A stretch of DNA of 64,000 bases, taken from assembly GCA_948567375.1 (NCBI GenBank), contig OX419755.1, forward strand, positions 79,874,218 through 79,938,217, in the 5' to 3' direction. Positions within the stretch are counted from its first letter, which is position 1; each line of letters opens with the position of its first letter. This document shows positions 34,590-64,000 of the stretch, in pieces. The notes beneath the pieces were generated by a model. That model made no database searches. It was not told the origin of the DNA and was given only the letters and a program-made list of their open reading frames with translations. The stretch comes from Lunularia cruciata. Its lineage: Eukaryota; Streptophyta; Marchantiopsida; Lunulariales; Lunulariaceae. The translations under genes were made by a program, and so were the position numbers.

Positions 34590-36150
34590 GTCGAGTTCAC
34601 CAACTATCATACTTTTCTTTTCTCTCTCTACAAATGCACAAGGTGCTTAGCTATGGATACTACAAATTAGAGGATGTATGTAAACCCATAACTACTTGTC
34701 TGAACACACATGGTACCTAACCGTTGGAACCCTCCTTTCTCGTAACTAGTATTTTTGCTATTGGGAAGGGTAGTGATGGGCAACCTAACCTGTCATCAAA
34801 ACATGCACTCTTGGTCTGCTGGTCATCACCTCCAACATTACCAAAGAGAAATAAACAACACTCCTAGAAGGAAATAACCTAAGCGCAATGCTCACACACC
34901 AATCCAAACCCACTTGGCGTACAAACATGCATACAAGCACAAAGAGGATCCAATCAGAAGAATATTGCAACAACTCTTTGTGATTTTTGTCAAAAAAGAG
35001 CTTCAAAGCCTTCTTGCTTTGTCATCAAGCTCATTTCAACCTTTACTCCAAGCCTCCAATCTGAACTTCAGATCTCAACAATTTTCTACTCCAAGTGGAG
35101 AATTCCTATGTATTCTTGATGGGGAAAACTTTGTGCAGCTCATACAACCATAAATTTTTCTATGTAGCTTGGATTCAAGAGTTCTAGAATACAATGGAAA
35201 GCCTGTGAGATAAGCTTTCCATTGAAATAATATAATCCTCAATCTGATAACTACAACTTCCTTGACAAGCTCTCAAAGTTGGCCAAATGTTTCACAACTT
35301 TCACCCTAATTTTGTAATCCCTATTTTAGGGGTTTTGCCCCTGGTTCTTACCAACTTTCCCCTGATTTCTAAATCAGATGTACACTTGATCCTCAAAAAA
35401 CACTCTGGAAATCTGAACTCTCAATCATAGTCACAAAAGTGAGAGAATTGACTTTCAATTATGATTGAAGAAAGAAGTGTTCCTCCGAGCTTACGATAGT
35501 CTTTTCACTTGTTGTTGTTGAAACTTGTTGCATCAGATCTCACTCTCTATGACTCCAGAGCCAACTTTATTTTCCATAGTTGTTTTTTGTGCTCTTTTAA
35601 AACCCTCTGCAAAGTTTTATGGCTTAATCCAACCCCAATTCCTAGATATAGATCAACTCCTAAGCCGGGCTAACTTGTGAGCTCTACAGACCCAGGTATA
35701 CTTGATCCAAGACGTTGATTTCTGTATTTGAAGAATTCACTTGAAACCCTTGCATAGAGGTGTAAAACCTACCCACCAACAACATTAGAATTTTTCATAA
35801 TGCAACTCAAACTACAACTTAGGGAGTGACCAAAACTCCAAACCTGATCATTAACTCTTCTCCAACACCTTACATCCCAAAAGCTTCAATTTCAACAAAT
35901 TGGATCTGTTTGAGATTGATCCAAAACTAAGACATCTCATGCTTGAATCCTTCCTCTGATGTTCTACCACTCGCATATTGCTCCAACTCTCACTCCCAAC
36001 ATTCTCTTCCTTGTCTTTCCACTCGCCCTCATCTATATTCATTAGAGCACTCAAACATGATGAGATTGTAACCCACATGGCCAATCCCATATGTGTACAT
36101 AGATTGCTCACATGGCAGCATCTCATCTGTCGGATCTAGCATACAACCTA
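34590..36150. other. Non-coding DNA upstream of fossil L
   Basis: No coding content recognised. As it lies just upstream of the L gag on the minus strand, it may be the L leader and 5' LTR, but no second copy is present to test this. Confidence 0.35.
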
Positions 36151-56996: not shown

Positions 56997-57210
56997 TGTA
57001 AGCACCCAAAAATTGCAATCACTAGAGTGACAAAGCTATTAAAGGATAGCCAAGGTATGTAGTGGTCCTTCTTGCCCCTAAAGGCAATGATCATCATTGC
57101 TCTCGCTTGTATGCTTGATTGTGCCAGTGACTCTGCTCATAGAGGGTTTGCAACCACCATATCATGCAAGGTATGATGATCAACAATGAAAGGAATATAA
57201 TGGTGTTTGT

Positions 57211-57308
57211 CATGCGTATATACATCACTACACAACATAACTGTCAACATCATACACTGTAGAAACATAACTCACACATAAGTCATGCATAGACTCTAAA
57301 GTGCCACA
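57211..57308. repeat. Direct repeat inside the F LTR, copy 1
   Basis: Shares GCGTATATACAT, CTACACAACATA, GTCAACATCATACACT and AGACTCTAAAGT with 57771-57860, in the same order and strand. Confidence 0.85.
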
Positions 57309-57770
57309 ATAATCAGTTTGTTTACACCATTCAATTCAATTCAACTCAACTTAGATCAGTACTTGATCTATCACTCTATAAACTGCAAACAACTAGACAC
57401 TGATTATAGTCAAGCCACATTCACTCTAGCTAAGAGAATCCAAGTGATGCTCACTGGCCTCTGTCCACCATAGGCAGGAACTTGAAGGCTCAACATTAGA
57501 GAAGTGAGCTCTCAAGAGCTGCACTTAAAAGGTATACCCCTAGACTCAAGCTAGGTCTGAAACCCTAATGGTCCCACTGACAGCACATCCAACGGTACAA
57601 AAGGGTGCCAAGTGACGGTGAGCCCCACCATGAAGTCAATACCCCAAACAAAAAATCTGCCAGTCTGAAGTAGTCTATGGGTAATTGCTAAAATACCTCT
57701 AACTACTATCACTACAACTCTAATGTCCAAGCAATCTAGATGCGACACTACAAATGGCGTGACAACTATT

Positions 57771-57860
57771 GTGCGTATATACATTGCTACACAACATACA
57801 TCAATGTCAACATCATACACTATAGACACATAACTCATACATAGACTCTAAAGTACCACA
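57771..57860. repeat. Direct repeat inside the F LTR, copy 2
   Basis: Second copy of 57211-57308. This one forms the LTR edge next to the polypurine tract. Confidence 0.85.
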
Positions 57861-58029
57861 ATCGCCCCCCTAGCTGGTGGTTAGGTCCCTCTACCTCTAG
57901 ATAGCCATCTACTCCAAGTATATGGTATATCCTATGATGTGCAAAGATCAAGAGGCCGGGTGCTATCAAGCCTCATCGTTAGTTCCATGTTTGCAATCTA
58001 TACCATATAAAGGATGAACTAGCTATAGG

Positions 58030-58164
58030 TCAAGTACATCTAGGACATAACCATTGTCCTTGAGGAACCACTATGAGAGGAGGAGTCATACATGCCATAT
58101 GCCATCCTCTCAAATAGCTATCACACACTAACATAATAACAACTCCACCAAAAGAGCCACATAC
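58030..58164 (-). mobile_element. PHD-finger-like block at the end of the F pol region
   Basis: The minus strand reads a PHD-type pattern: MLVCDSYLRGWHMAC, then TPPL, VVPQGQWLCPRC, followed by a stop codon that fits the natural C-terminal end. The spacing of the CD, the WHM-C and the W-CP-C is that of PHD fingers (W two residues before the last Cys pair). It lies where chromoviruses carry a chromodomain, between the integrase and the 3' LTR. PHD fingers in known proteins read histone H3 tails; a role in target choice here is inference. Confidence 0.72.
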
Positions 58165-58519
58165 AAGCCTTCCCGTACAACTGCCAAGCTTGGGTCCATA
58201 GTACCATCAATGTTTAGGAGGTGGCATGGCACACAATTGCGCACATGATCCTTCCAAACAACTCCATCACATCCTTCCAACATAAGCACTCTAGATGGCA
58301 AAACCTTATGCACTTTCAAGATAGTGCGGCCTATAGAAACATCAAGTGTTTTCGGTGTTGTATGCTATAGATATATATATAGTCCCTTGGATGAAATCAA
58401 CAAATAGAGGGTCCATAACCTCTTCCTTGAATAGTAGCATAACGTAAGGTATCTCTATATGCTGAGCAATTGCCAAGTTCTCAAAGGCTATCAACATTAC
58501 CCTCTGAGAGATCACTGCC

Positions 58520-59300
58520 TGTTAAGAACATGCACTCATCCATACATCTAGGTCATCCAAGTCCAAAACTATAGTAGCATTTTGACAAACGGCTACAAGT
58601 AAATATAGATCTTGTCCATAGAGTAGAAAGTAAGGAGAGAAGGATGCTAAGGAGGCTTGCTGGCTGAACCAATAGCCCATGGCCAACCAAGGTAACAAGA
58701 GATCCCAATCTCCCAAGTGGCCTTTCTGCAAACCATACTTTTGCAATCCTCTCTTCACCGTCTGAATCACTCTCTCTACTAAGCCATCTGCCTTAGGGTG
58801 ATCTTGGGAGGTAGTATGATGATCAATCAAAGCCTTGTCACACAAGACTTGAAACTCTCCCAAGAACTTTGTACCTTGATTAGTCAAAACATCAACTGGT
58901 GCACCAAAATGACTTAGAACCTAATCAAGGAAAGAATAAGCTGTCCTTTCACTAGACTTATCAAGAAGTGCTACCAACTCAATCCACTTGGAGAAGTGCT
59001 CCACCATCACCAAAACATACCAATGATGTCTCACAGTCAACAATAAAGGTCAAGCAAAGTCCAAACTCCAATGGTATCCCAATCCCATGATAGGTAATAG
59101 GTGCAACTATGGTGTATGAGCATTAATGATGCCCTAACTTGATCACAAACTACAGATCTGGCAACAAACTACTATACATCAGTTTGCATACTATGCCACC
59201 AATAATGACTCTAGAGTAAGCTATATGTACACTTTACTCCAAAATGTCCTAGCTCCTCATGAGCATGACGGACCAACTGTAGTCTCTAAGATGGAAGTGG
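58520..59300 (-). mobile_element. Integrase region of element F
   Basis: Core motifs on the minus strand near 58522-58887 are TNQGTKFLGEFQVLC, DHPKADGLVERVIQTVKRGL and LPWLAMGYWFSQQASLASFS. Zinc-binding-domain remnants lie near 59150-59230. Confidence 0.85.
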
Positions 59301-59489: not shown

Positions 59490-59990
59490 ACTCTATGGAT
59501 TTGTGACCTCAATAACTCGTCTTGTATGTGCTAAGAGAGATATCACCAAAGTCTCAAAAAACATACAAAGAAAGGTAGATGCATGCCAACCTAACACCAT
59601 CTCCTTAGTTGTCTTACCATGCCAATGTGCTTTGGCTTGATCTTGTTGGCTGGGATATGGATTTCTACTCAACCCATCTGCATCACAATTCACCACTCCA
59701 GGTCTATGAATAACCATGAAATCATATTCCTATAAAATCAGAGCCCATCGAGCAAGCTTTCTTGAAAGCTTGTCGGACTCCATCAAGCACTTTAATGGCT
59801 GATGATCAATGATGAGAGTAAAGGGGTTACCAAATAGGTAACATCAGAAATGTGCTATTGCCCAAACCATTGCCAAACACTCTCCCTCATATGAATTATA
59901 CTTTGCCTCTACTGAATTGTTGGAGCAACTAACATAGGCCACCACAAACTCCTTCCCCTCATCATCATGTTGGGTGAGCATTGCTCCAAA
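59490..59990 (-). mobile_element. RNase H and connection region of element F
   Basis: The minus strand reads VIHRPGVVN and DADGLSRNPYPS near 59660-59717, the end of RNase H and the LSR-type junction. Further RNase H remnants lie to about 59990. Confidence 0.75.
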
Positions 59991-60805
59991 CCCCAACATA
60001 CTCCAATCAGTGTGAACCTGAAATGGTCATCCTTTGATCAGTCTCCTCAAAATAAAAATAGATGTCAACCTCTCCTTGAGCTCTATAAAAGCTCTCTCTT
60101 GCTCATCTCCTCAACACCACTCCTGTGTAAGCTTGGTCAACTTGTCAAGGCATTGGCAATGACACTAAATCCTCTAACATAATTGCAATAGAAGTTTGCT
60201 AACCCAAGGAATGCTCGCACTCTACTCACATCCGTAGGTCAAGGAATACATGCAATAGCCTCCACCTTGTTCTATTGAACACCCAAGTCCTCCGGGGTAG
60301 ATAATGTGACCCAAATACTCAACCTTCTCATGGAAGAACCTACACTTCCCAAGATGTAATTTGAGTCCATGAGATCTCAAACTCTCAAACACCTCCAACA
60401 ACTATCTCTCATACTCCTCCACAATAGTCGTATAGACCAAAATGTCATCAATATAGCACCGAGCAAAATCCAATCCAACTAAGATTTTGTCCATGACCCT
60501 TTAAACTCAATTGGAGCATTCTTTAACCCAAATGGTAAGAACCTCCACTGATATAACACATCCTTACCGTGAGGATCAATAGCCCAAAATACTATCTTGG
60601 ACTTATCCTCCTTCTTGATCTGCAACTTATGATATCTTGCTCAAAGGTCCAAAGTATTGAAGATCTTTGCATGCCCAATTGCATCAAAGATCTCCTCCAA
60701 TGTAGGCATGACATACCAATCAGCCCTAGTCTATTTGTAACAATATGGAGTTTAGCGACGAAGTTAGTCGGGCTTACGAAGTAACACAGAAGACAAAGTA
60801 GCCTA

Positions 60806-60818
60806 GAATATTCCTGAA
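60806..60818. promoter_or_regulatory. Perfect three-unit heat-shock element in LTR
   Basis: GAAtaTTCctGAA, at the same LTR place as the sites at 15766 and 19294. Confidence 0.55.
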
Positions 60819-60880
60819 GTATCTAGGAAGCTTCTTGGGAAGCTTCCCGGCTAGCTTACCTTGCACTTCAAGTAAGTAGC

Positions 60881-60893
60881 TTCTAGAAGCTTC
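60881..60893. promoter_or_regulatory. Perfect three-unit heat-shock element in LTR
   Basis: TTCtaGAAgcTTC in the solo LTR inside element F. Confidence 0.55.
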
Positions 60894-61339
60894 CAACTAG
60901 CTTAGCTTGCACGCCAAGTAGGCGACTTCTAGAAGGAAGCTTCTTGAGAAGTTTCCTAATTAACTTGGCTTGCACTCTAAGAAAGAGGCTTGAGGAAGCT
61001 TCTTGAGAAGCTTCTCAAGGGCCTTGTATGCTACTTATAAATACCAAAGCCAAAGCTCATGCTAGGCATTTGGATTTTTCCCTCATTCAAGTGTCCCAAT
61101 GTGAGTTTCCATTCTCCTATTTCTCTCCTCGGATTTGGTCTTTTACATTATTGATTGATAGGACAATAATCTCCACACATCCGCCTATCTATGCAGTTGC
61201 CATGCATATCCTTCTTGGTTGGCATCATTGTAGTTGATGCATACTCTCCATGTAAAATCTCCACCAAACCAACCTCAAAAGGTCACTACTCCGACTCTAA
61301 ATCAATGTCCTCTCCATATCATTATATCAATAAGGATGT

Positions 61340-61859
61340 TAGAAAACTAGGGTATTTCTAGTCAGCTCAATCTATATACCAAGTCCCTTTGGAGCACCTA
61401 AATCCTTCATATTGAAGGCAAAACAACTCATGTAGCTCCTCAAGAACCTCCAAACTCTCTGTCTTTTCTCTTTATAAGGTTGGGTCTAAGATCTAGCTCC
61501 CAAGTATCCTTTGCAACTGTAGTAGGAGTGGAATACATGCTGATTGGCTGCTATACTGGGCGCTTGGGAGTAGTACTATCATGCTCCCAAGTACTAGAGG
61601 TCCCAACCTTAATGTGAAAAACTCCCTCCACTCTAGTTGCAAGCTCCACACGTCCTCTAGCAACATCCCAGGTAGACCAAGGGTGTAATCCAAGTAGCCC
61701 ACTCTCCCTAGTAGCTACTAGCTATGTCCCAAGAATACCATGTCCACTCGGTCCATCACTCCCAATATGTGCCTGAATCGTCTTGCTGGGCATAGGGCTC
61801 ACAAGTGTCCAAGTGGTGATGCATATCAAGTGCACCTATGCTGCTCTGCCAAGCTAAGG
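61340..61859 (-). mobile_element. Linker between methyltransferase-like and RT regions of element F
   Basis: Minus-strand coding-like sequence, including a stretch near 61490-61700 (MGYLDYTLGLPGMLLEDVW), that I cannot assign. It is where a protease would be expected, but no DTG/DSG-type motif was confirmed. Confidence 0.4.
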
Positions 61860-62640
61860 CTCACAATGTAGGTCAAACAATTTAGGTCCATAGCTTGACC
61901 TAACACCTAATGCTTGAATGCCTTTGACATTGCTGGAATAACGATAATATTGGTGCAAAAACCCATTGCCAACTCTCTTATTGGCATTGGGCTCCACCAA
62001 TTGTTGTAATTGTGAGTCCCAAACTAGTCCAAGACCTCTCTCTTGAAAAGCATGAGAGCTTGGGAAACTCATAAGTGTGGGAAAAGTAGCTCTAGACTAT
62101 CTAACTAGGTTCACCACTACCATAAGTGACCTATCAGCAACTACCACAGTTTGAGATTGACGCCCAACATCCAAGATGTCATCAACAATGATGTGGTCTA
62201 GTTGCTAAATCCTATCATAAGCACACTATAAAACCTCTCTAGGTAAGAGGTTTGTTCACCAAAGATGAAGACAATGAGCCCATGATCCTACTTAGGCTGC
62301 ATCTAACAATATAGTAGGTCCCATCCAAGAATGATCCTGATGTGTACTCACCACCACTTTGGTGTGAGAATCACCCATCAAAGGAACATTCTCTAAAAGG
62401 TAAGCTGGAGAAACAAATTGATGGACCTGGAGATGTCAAAGTATAGGTAACATCTCCCAAAACACACCAGAATGGGGATCTTGAAGACCCAAACCTTGGC
62501 CATATCCCTGGTATGGCCATCCAAAAATTAACAAATGAAAAGGCCTATGTATCTCCAAATCATACGCCCCCAATAAGGAAATATCTGCTAATAGTGCCTT
62601 TTGATAACCCTTGACTGCTGACATTAGTAATAACTCAAGA
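61860..62640 (-). mobile_element. Cytosine-C5 DNA methyltransferase-like region of element F
   Basis: Separate blocks on the minus strand follow the order of C5-methyltransferase motifs. Near 62450-62535, FGW followed by P and Q, then GLGLQDPHSGVFWEM, corresponds to motif IV (the PCQ region) and the conserved DxRSxLFxE stretch. Near 62382-62410, AYLLENVPLMGD corresponds to motif VI (ENV). Near 62245-62300 are LLDAA and, further on, TNL, in the place of motif VIII; in DNMT3-type enzymes this reads IDA, AHRARYFW, GNL. Near 61883-61906, VLGQAMDL lies in the place of motif X (LLGxxW in DNMT3). The target-recognition part is short, as in DNMT3-type enzymes. Motif I, the SAM-binding loop, would lie further upstream. 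RT of the same strand follows about 500 bp downstream. It is broken in several places. Confidence 0.75.
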
Positions 62641-62797
62641 TATCAATAGGCCAAGTGTGCCACATGATGGAGAGAGACTCATCTAGTCATCTCATCTCTC
62701 TCCACATACAAGTACCTCTATACTCGTATACCCTCCTATATACTACAACTAGTCTAGTGCTAATCTCACCAAACAACTCTTATAGACATACTCCCTT

Positions 62798-63208
62798 TGT
62801 AGAAGACCAAATCCGAGGAGAGAAATAAAAGAATGGAAACTCACATTGGGACATTTGAATGAGGGAAAACTCCAAATGCCTAGCATGAGCTTTGGCTTTG
62901 GTATTTATAGGTAGCATACAAGGCCCTTGAGAAGCTTCTCAAGAAGCTTCCTTGAGCCGCTTTCTTAGAGTGCAAGCCGAGTTAACTAGGAAGCTTCTCA
63001 AAAAGCTTCCTTCTAGAAGCCACCTATTTGGCGTGCAAGCTAAGCTAGTTAGAAGCTTCTAGAAGCTACCTGCTTGGAGTGCAAGTTAACTAGTTGGGAA
63101 GCTTCCCAAGAAGCTTTTTAGATGCTTTTGGAATATTCTAGGCTAATTTGGCTTATTCTCTACTTCATTAGCCTTACTAACTATGTCACTAAACTCCATA
63201 TTGTTACA
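62798..63208 (-). repeat. 3' LTR of element G (HSE-rich family)
   Basis: Ends TGTAACAATATGGAG (minus strand, from 63208) and CTTCTACA at 62798, with TATAAATACC on the minus strand near 62910. It matches 15374-15848, 18946-19376 and 60736-61147. Confidence 0.9.
63052..63064. promoter_or_regulatory. Perfect three-unit heat-shock element in LTR
   Basis: GAAgcTTCtaGAA in the element G LTR. A near-perfect site with one base off lies near 63127, at the conserved position of the family. Confidence 0.55.
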
Positions 63209-64000
63209 TATTCCCCCACCGCTAGTTGGTGACGTCCTCATTGCTATTGAAGCTTCAAACTCATGGATGGCCATTTGTGCATTGTGGAGGTGAGAAAGAG
63301 GTTCCCATGTAGCATCATGAAGGAGGTACCTTTTCCAAAGGACCTTGTACTCCGTATGGTGGAGGCGTCCTTGTTGGATGTAGCGACATGCAAGGATACA
63401 ATCAACTTCATACTCCTCATGATCATTGATAGGGATAGGGGGAGGAGGAGGTTGGACTCAAGAGGAGAAAGAAGAGGGGTTAGGAACAAAGGTTTCAACT
63501 TGGAAACATGAAAGACAGGATGGATGCGCATATGACAAGGCAAGGCAAGTCGATAAGCAACAAGAGAGACAATTTGGGTGACATCAAAAGGTCCTATCTA
63601 ATTAGAGGCAAGTTTATGAACTTGGGTATTAAGAGGGAAGGTTAGATTACTAGAGGATAACATAACTTTATCACCAACTTCAAAGATGAGATCACGACAA
63701 TGATAGTCCGCATATTGTTTTTGACGATTCTAAGCAACAAGGAGGTGAGATTTGGCATGTTGGAGAGATTCAGAGATGGTGGTCAAGGAGGTTGAATTAT
63801 GGAGGACTTGAGATGGAGGAGGAGCAAGAAGAGAATTTCGGACAAGTGGATCTTGGCCAAAATTGAGAAAGAAAGGAGAGAATCCAATGCTTGCCTGTTT
63901 AGAATTATTGTATGCAAACTCCGTAGCTGCAAGACATTGATCCCAATTGATATGGTGAATGTTGACAAAGGCACAAAGCATATCTTCCAAGGTGCGATTT

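Follow-up and report, generated by a model that had tools for sequence, protein, structure and literature searches.

Methyltransferase domain in the window

The window analyzed here is a 64,000-nucleotide stretch of the Lunularia cruciata genome (GenBank assembly GCA_948567375.1, contig OX419755.1, positions 79,874,218 to 79,938,217). On its minus strand it carries a broken cytosine-C5 DNA methyltransferase domain, followed by the reverse transcriptase (RT), RNase H and integrase of a Ty3/gypsy retrotransposon (Table 1). A first-pass annotation had placed four methyltransferase motif blocks here, and all four were found on the minus strand at the positions it gave; the span that it assigned, 61860-62640, hit the right locus but left out about 150 bp on the side of motif I. 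Motifs IV, VI and VIII (LLDAA...TNL) lie in one minus frame with several stops inside. Motifs I and X are both read in a second minus frame, motif X having been shifted by an indel.

An X-masked translation of the window enzyme retrieved 12 proteins, the best of which came from Sphagnum troendelagicum (58% identity, E = 2e-74). A profile made from those 12 proteins was run with filters off against the six-frame translation of the whole window. It matched the methyltransferase locus only, on the minus strand as the first reading had expected, and the next best match in the window had an E value of 0.66. The segment 62636-61689 was 85% identical at the DNA level to a genomic copy that is still open. 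The Pfam profile PF00145 matched six of six relatives (E = 4.5e-9 to 4.6e-5), a further ten of ten (E = 1.5e-13 to 2.4e-6) and open copy L032 (E = 5.1e-7); the pieces from the window itself gave no match to it. The window copy is dead: the catalytic Cys reads Tyr, although the ENV of motif VI is kept, and the copy also contains stops and frameshifts. The same Cys-to-Tyr change (GWPYQG) was seen in two metagenome proteins, P0003 and P0007, among 124 proteins.

Table 1. Features of the methyltransferase-bearing element and its neighbor in the window.
Feature	Position	Strand	Remarks
DNMT3-like C5-methyltransferase domain	61850..62796	minus	match to relatives' profile, E 3.1e-105 and 2.1e-15 (motif X)
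Motif I, LFGEIST	62776-62756	minus	second minus frame; 20 bp inside end of neighboring long terminal repeat (LTR)
Motif IV, GWPYQG, then GLGLQDPHSGVFWEM	62522-62505	minus	catalytic Cys replaced by Tyr
Motif VI, LENVP (in AYLLENVP)	62396-62382	minus	
Motif X, GQAMDL within VLGQAMDLNCLT	61900-61883	minus	
UAG ending the Gag-protease-methyltransferase open reading frame (ORF) in open copies	61551..61553	minus	next six bases CAG CCA
Linker and first part of RT	61155..61550	minus	within 86.6% match to open copy
Solo LTR of another element, inserted in RT	60733..61154	plus	inverted pair with 62797-63211; gap in element alignment
Rest of RT (RVT_1)	60027..60732	minus	PF00078 in two pieces, E 0.00012 and 0.0025; 89-90% to open copy
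RNase H	59493..60026	minus	59844-60026: PF17919 E 1.3e-16, PF17917 E 2.1e-16; 59493-59729: no Pfam match
DDE integrase core	58522..59049	minus	rve E 0.015, rve_3 E 0.2; open copies rve E 5e-13, 2.8e-13
C-terminal PHD finger of Pol	58030..58206	minus	PF00628 E 3.9e-7; three open copies 2.7e-10 to 1.6e-11
Repeat B1	57773..57862	minus	84% to B of open copy
Repeat A2	57311..57764	minus	83% to A of open copy
Repeat B2, right end of element	57208..57310	minus	89% to B of open copy
3' LTR (62797-63211) and chromodomain end of a different gypsy element	62797..63999	minus	Chromo E 6.9e-12; inserted next to motif I

Host element and its neighbors

When an open copy was aligned to the window, the host element ran from 62796 to 57208 at 83-90% DNA identity and was interrupted by the solo LTR only. 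Its left part resumes outside the window, at approximately 68358-71996 in window-equivalent coordinates (L036), and the junction with that part has a 4-bp overlap, as expected of a target duplication. The alignment therefore indicates that the methyltransferase forms one element with the downstream RT, RNase H, integrase and PHD finger, to which the upstream chromodomain end does not belong. The inverted repeat pair 60733-61147/62797-63211 consists of the solo LTR (plus strand) and the 3' LTR of the chromodomain gypsy element (minus strand). To judge from the sequence, a Ty3/gypsy family with a DNMT3-like methyltransferase is represented here by one dead copy. A second, tiny relic lies at 34775-34855 (minus strand): these 81 bp share 79% identity with the leader that directly precedes the family's Gag-side ORF (E = 2e-13).

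Copies in the genome

The 565.8-Mb L. cruciata assembly was searched with only the best candidates scored, and the counts given here are thus lower bounds. With the window enzyme as query, 145 of 14,856 first-look candidates were scored and gave at least 146 matches; with the open-copy enzyme, 122 of 13,467 were scored and gave at least 122 copies that were 96-100% identical. Among the latter 122, the enzyme was free of stops in 74, and 12 had an uninterrupted ORF of 1428-1448 amino acids (aa). The 30 best loci of each search were read (L002-L031, window copy included, and L041-L070). RT followed the methyltransferase on the same strand in 29 of 30 loci of each set, 58 of 60 altogether, and the enzyme was thus found beside RT in other copies, as the first-pass annotation had anticipated.

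Motif IV was intact (GWPCQG) in all 30 young loci and in 18 of the 30 older ones, in which the remainder had GWPYQG (2) or no match to the motif string (10). LENVP was present in 29 young and 23 older loci. The divergence between repeats A1 and A2 was 1.1, 1.1, 3.0 and 1.3% in four full copies. By these measures the family is young and often open, although the window copy is a fossil; the earlier description of the element as now fossil holds for this copy and not for its family. On C8, at about 52.3-52.7 Mb, three older enzyme copies with near-equal scores (L018, L020 and L021) start at 52318138, 52520630 and 52723130, a spacing of about 202.5 kb that is due either to a large tandem duplication or to an assembly artefact.

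Gag-side enzyme and the UAG codon

Four copies were read whole (L032-L035). The layout of the open copies is repeat A1, a Gag side with two zinc knuckles, a protease motif, the methyltransferase, the codons UAG CAG CCA, RT, RNase H, a DDE integrase, a PHD finger, and repeats B1, A2 and B2. The first ORF of L032 (ORF1, 1432 aa) matches gag below threshold (E = 0.054); its two CCHC knuckles lie at 416 and 447, the protease motif LLDSGA at 766 and the methyltransferase motifs at 1011-1307; a Pfam scan of this ORF gave PF00145 and the sub-threshold gag match only. The Pol domains RVT_1, RNase H, H2C2, rve and PHD follow in this order, as pieced together from L032, L033 and L035. The order of RT, RNase H and integrase, with H2C2 and a DDE core, fits an assignment to Ty3/gypsy (Metaviridae), made here by domain order. 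The methyltransferase had initially been described as lying upstream of RT; the order was correct, but the enzyme ends the Gag-protease ORF before the UAG instead of standing behind it with RT. An aspartic protease joined to the enzyme was also found in P0046 and P0058, which come from other sources, and below the curated cut-off in P0018.

ORF1 ended in TAG CAG CCA in all four open copies, and the RT side continued in the same frame. The stop could be aligned in 58 of the 60 loci and was TAG in 57 and TAA in one. The UAG site of the family matches the consensus for type I readthrough, UAG CARYYA (PMC3542737); in the window, this context is present on 8 of 2370 TAGs. Among 67 relatives with a readable motif X, 15 ended at repeated distances past it, namely 99 aa (7), 106 aa (4) and 148 aa (4), which would fit a stop at that place in relatives too, in a search that favored proteins of such length and in which some may end with their contig. 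An Rfam scan of L033 gave nothing at the gathering score.

Permuted repeats and target duplications

The copies are organized as A1, internal region, B1, 2 bp, A2 and B2, with outer ends TGTCACG...CGACA. Both flanks were read in seven copies. Six of these had an exact 4-bp duplication (GCTA, CACG, TTGG, CATA, AAGC and GAGT), and the seventh had AAGT/AAGC.

The repeat joints were counted genome-wide as exact patterns, for which reversed-pattern controls gave 0. The B|A joint occurred 656 times, with a 2-bp spacer in all 100 listed. The A|B joint occurred 1671 times; of the 100 listed, 90 were flush, eight had one extra base (G in four, A in two and T in two) and two had ACATC. In the element, A1 is followed by ACATC and B1 is preceded by G. 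The order B-A-B was found 613 times and B-A-internal seven times. In the first 28.6 Mb of C1, an exact A|B joint came after 27 of the 39 B|A joints; of the other 12, nine continued into a mutated A and then B, three were truncated or ran into other sequence, and none into A and then the internal region. Conversely, 73 of the 100 listed A|B joints had no exact B|A joint upstream, owing either to decay or to an A-B remnant left after recombination between A1 and A2.

Split direct repeats of the form A1-B1A2B2, as in DIRS elements, are thus present in the family. DIRS elements are not known to make a target duplication. No recombinase family, and hence no tyrosine recombinase, was detected in the open-copy ORFs scanned, which contained an rve integrase instead. 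The DIRS label was rejected on account of the DDE integrase and the 4-bp target duplications.

Kinship and spread of the enzyme

Among solved structures, DNMT3A ranked first (2.5e-23), followed by DNMT3B, DRM (7e-12), HaeIII, HhaI, the DNMT2 type (2.9e-4) and DNMT1 (0.19), and DNMT3A/B were also first by fold. This ranking agrees with the initial view of the enzyme as DNMT3-like rather than MET1/CMT-like. Its motifs are in the un-rearranged order I-IV-VI-VIII-X. Animal DNMT3A/B carry ADD and PWWP domains; neither was found in the Pfam scan of the 1432-aa ORF1, and the enzyme is for this reason classed as DNMT3-like. No protein named as a cellular DNMT3 occurred among the best 120 of 333 relatives.

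Among the proteins listed, relatives of the enzyme came from four named liverworts and from two species of Sphagnum. With these as the nearest named proteins, a land-plant gypsy lineage, as first proposed, is likely. One relative, P0045, is labelled as coming from a Candidatus Obscuribacterales metagenome-assembled genome and falls inside the tree of enzyme relatives; a eukaryotic contig may have been binned with that bacterial genome. A viral collection yielded one weak relative, IMGVR_UViG_3300038520_000575 (L001:1421-2554), part of a 377-aa ORF with 34% identity, which may be an outgroup.

Decay and constraint

C>T changes in the window copy were counted at sites on which four young copies agree: they affected 91 of 240 CG, 127 of 391 CHG and 107 of 1521 CHH positions, as against T>C changes at 41 of 2228 A/T sites. 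Such strong C>T change at CG and CHG indicates that the window copy was long methylated in both contexts. Its catalytic codon is now TAC. The ratio of nonsynonymous to synonymous substitution rates (dN/dS) among young open copies was 0.35 for the enzyme and 0.38 for RT. The columns of motifs IV and VI were invariant or nearly so among relatives that were 36-85% or 40-74% identical to the first row, and constraint is better seen in these catalytic columns than in dN/dS.

Discussion

As a whole, the arrangement is best explained by an element that would methylate its own complementary DNA (cDNA) before integration, a reading to which we give a probability of roughly 0.6. A leaky UAG would yield mostly the Gag-protease-methyltransferase protein and a small part of full Gag-Pol. 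With the enzyme on the Gag side of such a codon, the particle would contain more of it than of RT, and it would methylate the cDNA of the element there. Ordinary reverse transcription, with a purine run just before B1, would give a linear BA-internal-BA cDNA, whose ends would be joined into a closed circle with a variable A|B joint. The integrase would then open this circle within one of the repeats, at a fixed palindromic B|NN|A site, so that A-internal-B-A-B results, and its PHD finger may guide it to a chromatin state. The marked cDNA would arrive resembling host heterochromatin, and may thus evade a host check on bare DNA or land where harm is small. Self-methylation, readthrough and the circle step are the parts that we infer.

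The permuted repeats could have come from template switching in reverse transcription and not from a cut closed circle. Template switching has been proposed for the repeats of DIRS/PAT elements, and the family has the same split direct repeats as DIRS elements. Such repeats are also ascribed to the Klebsormidium nitens elements in the legend of Fig. 4 of de Mendoza et al. 2018 (PMC5890265). However, A|B joints whose extra bases match the sequence beyond A1 or before B1 resemble end joining, and the fixed 2-bp B|A spacer, the DDE integrase and the 4-bp duplications are unlike tyrosine-recombinase DIRS elements. We regard this origin of the repeats as possible but doubtful.

The enzyme could also work outward, on host genes, rival elements or host silencing, with self-methylation as a by-product. 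The many open copies could raise its nuclear dose, and host-wide effects in Symbiodinium are discussed by de Mendoza et al. (PMC5890265), but the placement with Gag and protease points to the particle, and the strong CG and CHG decay of the old window copy indicates that the family itself has been methylated; outward action is judged unlikely. That RNA (the packaged genome or a primer tRNA) is the substrate of the domain instead of DNA seems improbable to us. This idea was raised for the DNMTs of long interspersed elements (PMC5890265), and DNMT2-type enzymes are distant relatives in the solved-structure ranking, yet DNMT3A stands far above them there and DNMT3A/B lead by fold too. There is a small chance that the enzyme is a passenger, captured once, now useless to the element and hitch-hiking on it. 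The wrong-frame control described below removes the dN/dS argument against a passenger, but motif IV and VI columns are (nearly) invariant among the relatives, with Tyr for Cys in 2 of 124 proteins. Chance resemblance or an unrelated insertion next to RT, which the failure of the broken pieces alone to match Pfam might suggest, is refuted by the relatives' profile (E = 3e-105) and by the same order in 58 of 60 loci.

Several observations weigh against self-methylation and circle integration as set out above, or against parts of the evidence for them. Neither the broken enzyme pieces of the window nor the X-masked whole matched any Pfam family at E = 10, and in PDB they gave one meaningless match (E = 1.3). 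The circle model does not account for the T inserted at two of the 100 listed A|B joints. Nor does it account for the seven B-A-internal cases (C2, C6 and C12); they may be tandem copies, recombinants or products of a minor integration route. The UAG 9-mer was less conserved than its neighbors (conservation was higher in 164 of 198 windows), and changes near the UAG in old copies were mostly transitions at R and Y, which by nature leave the consensus intact, so that these data do not demonstrate selection on the readthrough context. CHG decay nearly equal to CG decay looks like the work of the host and not of a CG-only DNMT3. Between older and young loci, dN/dS was 0.47 for the enzyme and 0.39 for RT, and wrong-frame controls of the enzyme gave 0.375 and 1.63 against 0.332 in frame. 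As mutation is context-bound and a wrong-frame control comes near the in-frame value, dN/dS is uninformative and proves no selection; its use as proof was dropped after that control. The spread in named mosses and liverworts is known from enzyme proteins alone, without their flanks, and KnitGypsy-Dnmt3, the counterpart in K. nitens, showed no activity in yeast, a result called inconclusive by its authors (PMC5890265).

Dinoflagellates and Klebsormidium are known to harbor retrotransposons that bear DNMTs (de Mendoza et al. 2018, PMC5890265), in line with the first-pass annotation, which named dinoflagellates and charophyte algae. Compared by description only, the Lunularia family resembles KnitGypsy-Dnmt3, the closest element known, in its gypsy domain set, un-rearranged Dnmt3-type DNMT and DIRS-like repeats (PMC5890265). 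KnitGypsy-Dnmt3 belongs to a charophyte alga, has fewer copies than are found in Symbiodinium and carries its DNMT within the Pol polyprotein ORF (PMC5890265), whereas the Lunularia family has land-plant relatives, hundreds of copies, a DNMT on the Gag side of the UAG and a PHD finger. The words PHD, Gag and readthrough do not occur in the main text of that paper. SymbioDIRS-Dnmt3 of Symbiodinium likewise has a Dnmt3-type enzyme, which is active on CG in yeast, and split repeats; it is of the DIRS class with a tyrosine recombinase, in contrast to the DDE integrase and 4-bp duplications of the Lunularia family (PMC5890265).

An in-frame UAG before the polymerase part is shared with gammaretroviruses such as murine leukemia virus (MLV), and the CARYYA context after it with tobamoviruses and benyviruses; MLV, however, uses a pseudoknot, while the Lunularia family has an extra enzyme before the stop and a readthrough that is predicted from sequence (PMC3542737). 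A PHD finger behind a gypsy-type integrase is also found in Ginger1 transposases, but Ginger1 is a DNA transposon of Hydra for which the text names no methyltransferase (PMC2836005). A 2019 paper described methylase transposons as absent from land plants, such as tracheophytes (PMC6338049), and a 2025 survey treats those of streptophytes and dinoflagellates (PMC12344493). The Lunularia genome paper reports gypsy bursts linked to genome size doubling; words that begin with 'methyltransferase' are absent from its main text (PMC9985172). The DNMT-bearing kind of retrotransposon is therefore already known, as is the repeat order, which was reported for KnitGypsy-Dnmt3. The land-plant spread, the Gag-side leaky-stop arrangement, the adjacent PHD finger, and the evidence from joints and target duplications were not found in searches of the open PubMed Central literature (preprints, supplements and figures excluded).

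More tentatively, a land-plant gypsy lineage may deliver a de novo methyltransferase as part of Gag, mark its cDNA before integration, and integrate by a PHD-tipped integrase from a closed circle cut within its repeat. Living with host silencing in this manner, it may account for part of the gypsy bursts through which the Lunularia genome doubled in size. Its occurrence in liverworts and mosses and its counterpart in Klebsormidium would suggest that it arose before land plants did or was transferred horizontally more than once. The Gag-side placement and the permuted ends predict a leaky UAG and circular cDNA with A|B joints. The family would represent a little-known way for a retrotransposon to meddle with the mark that its host uses for silencing, and it offers a plant system for asking why a transposon methylates DNA in a host that silences by methylation.
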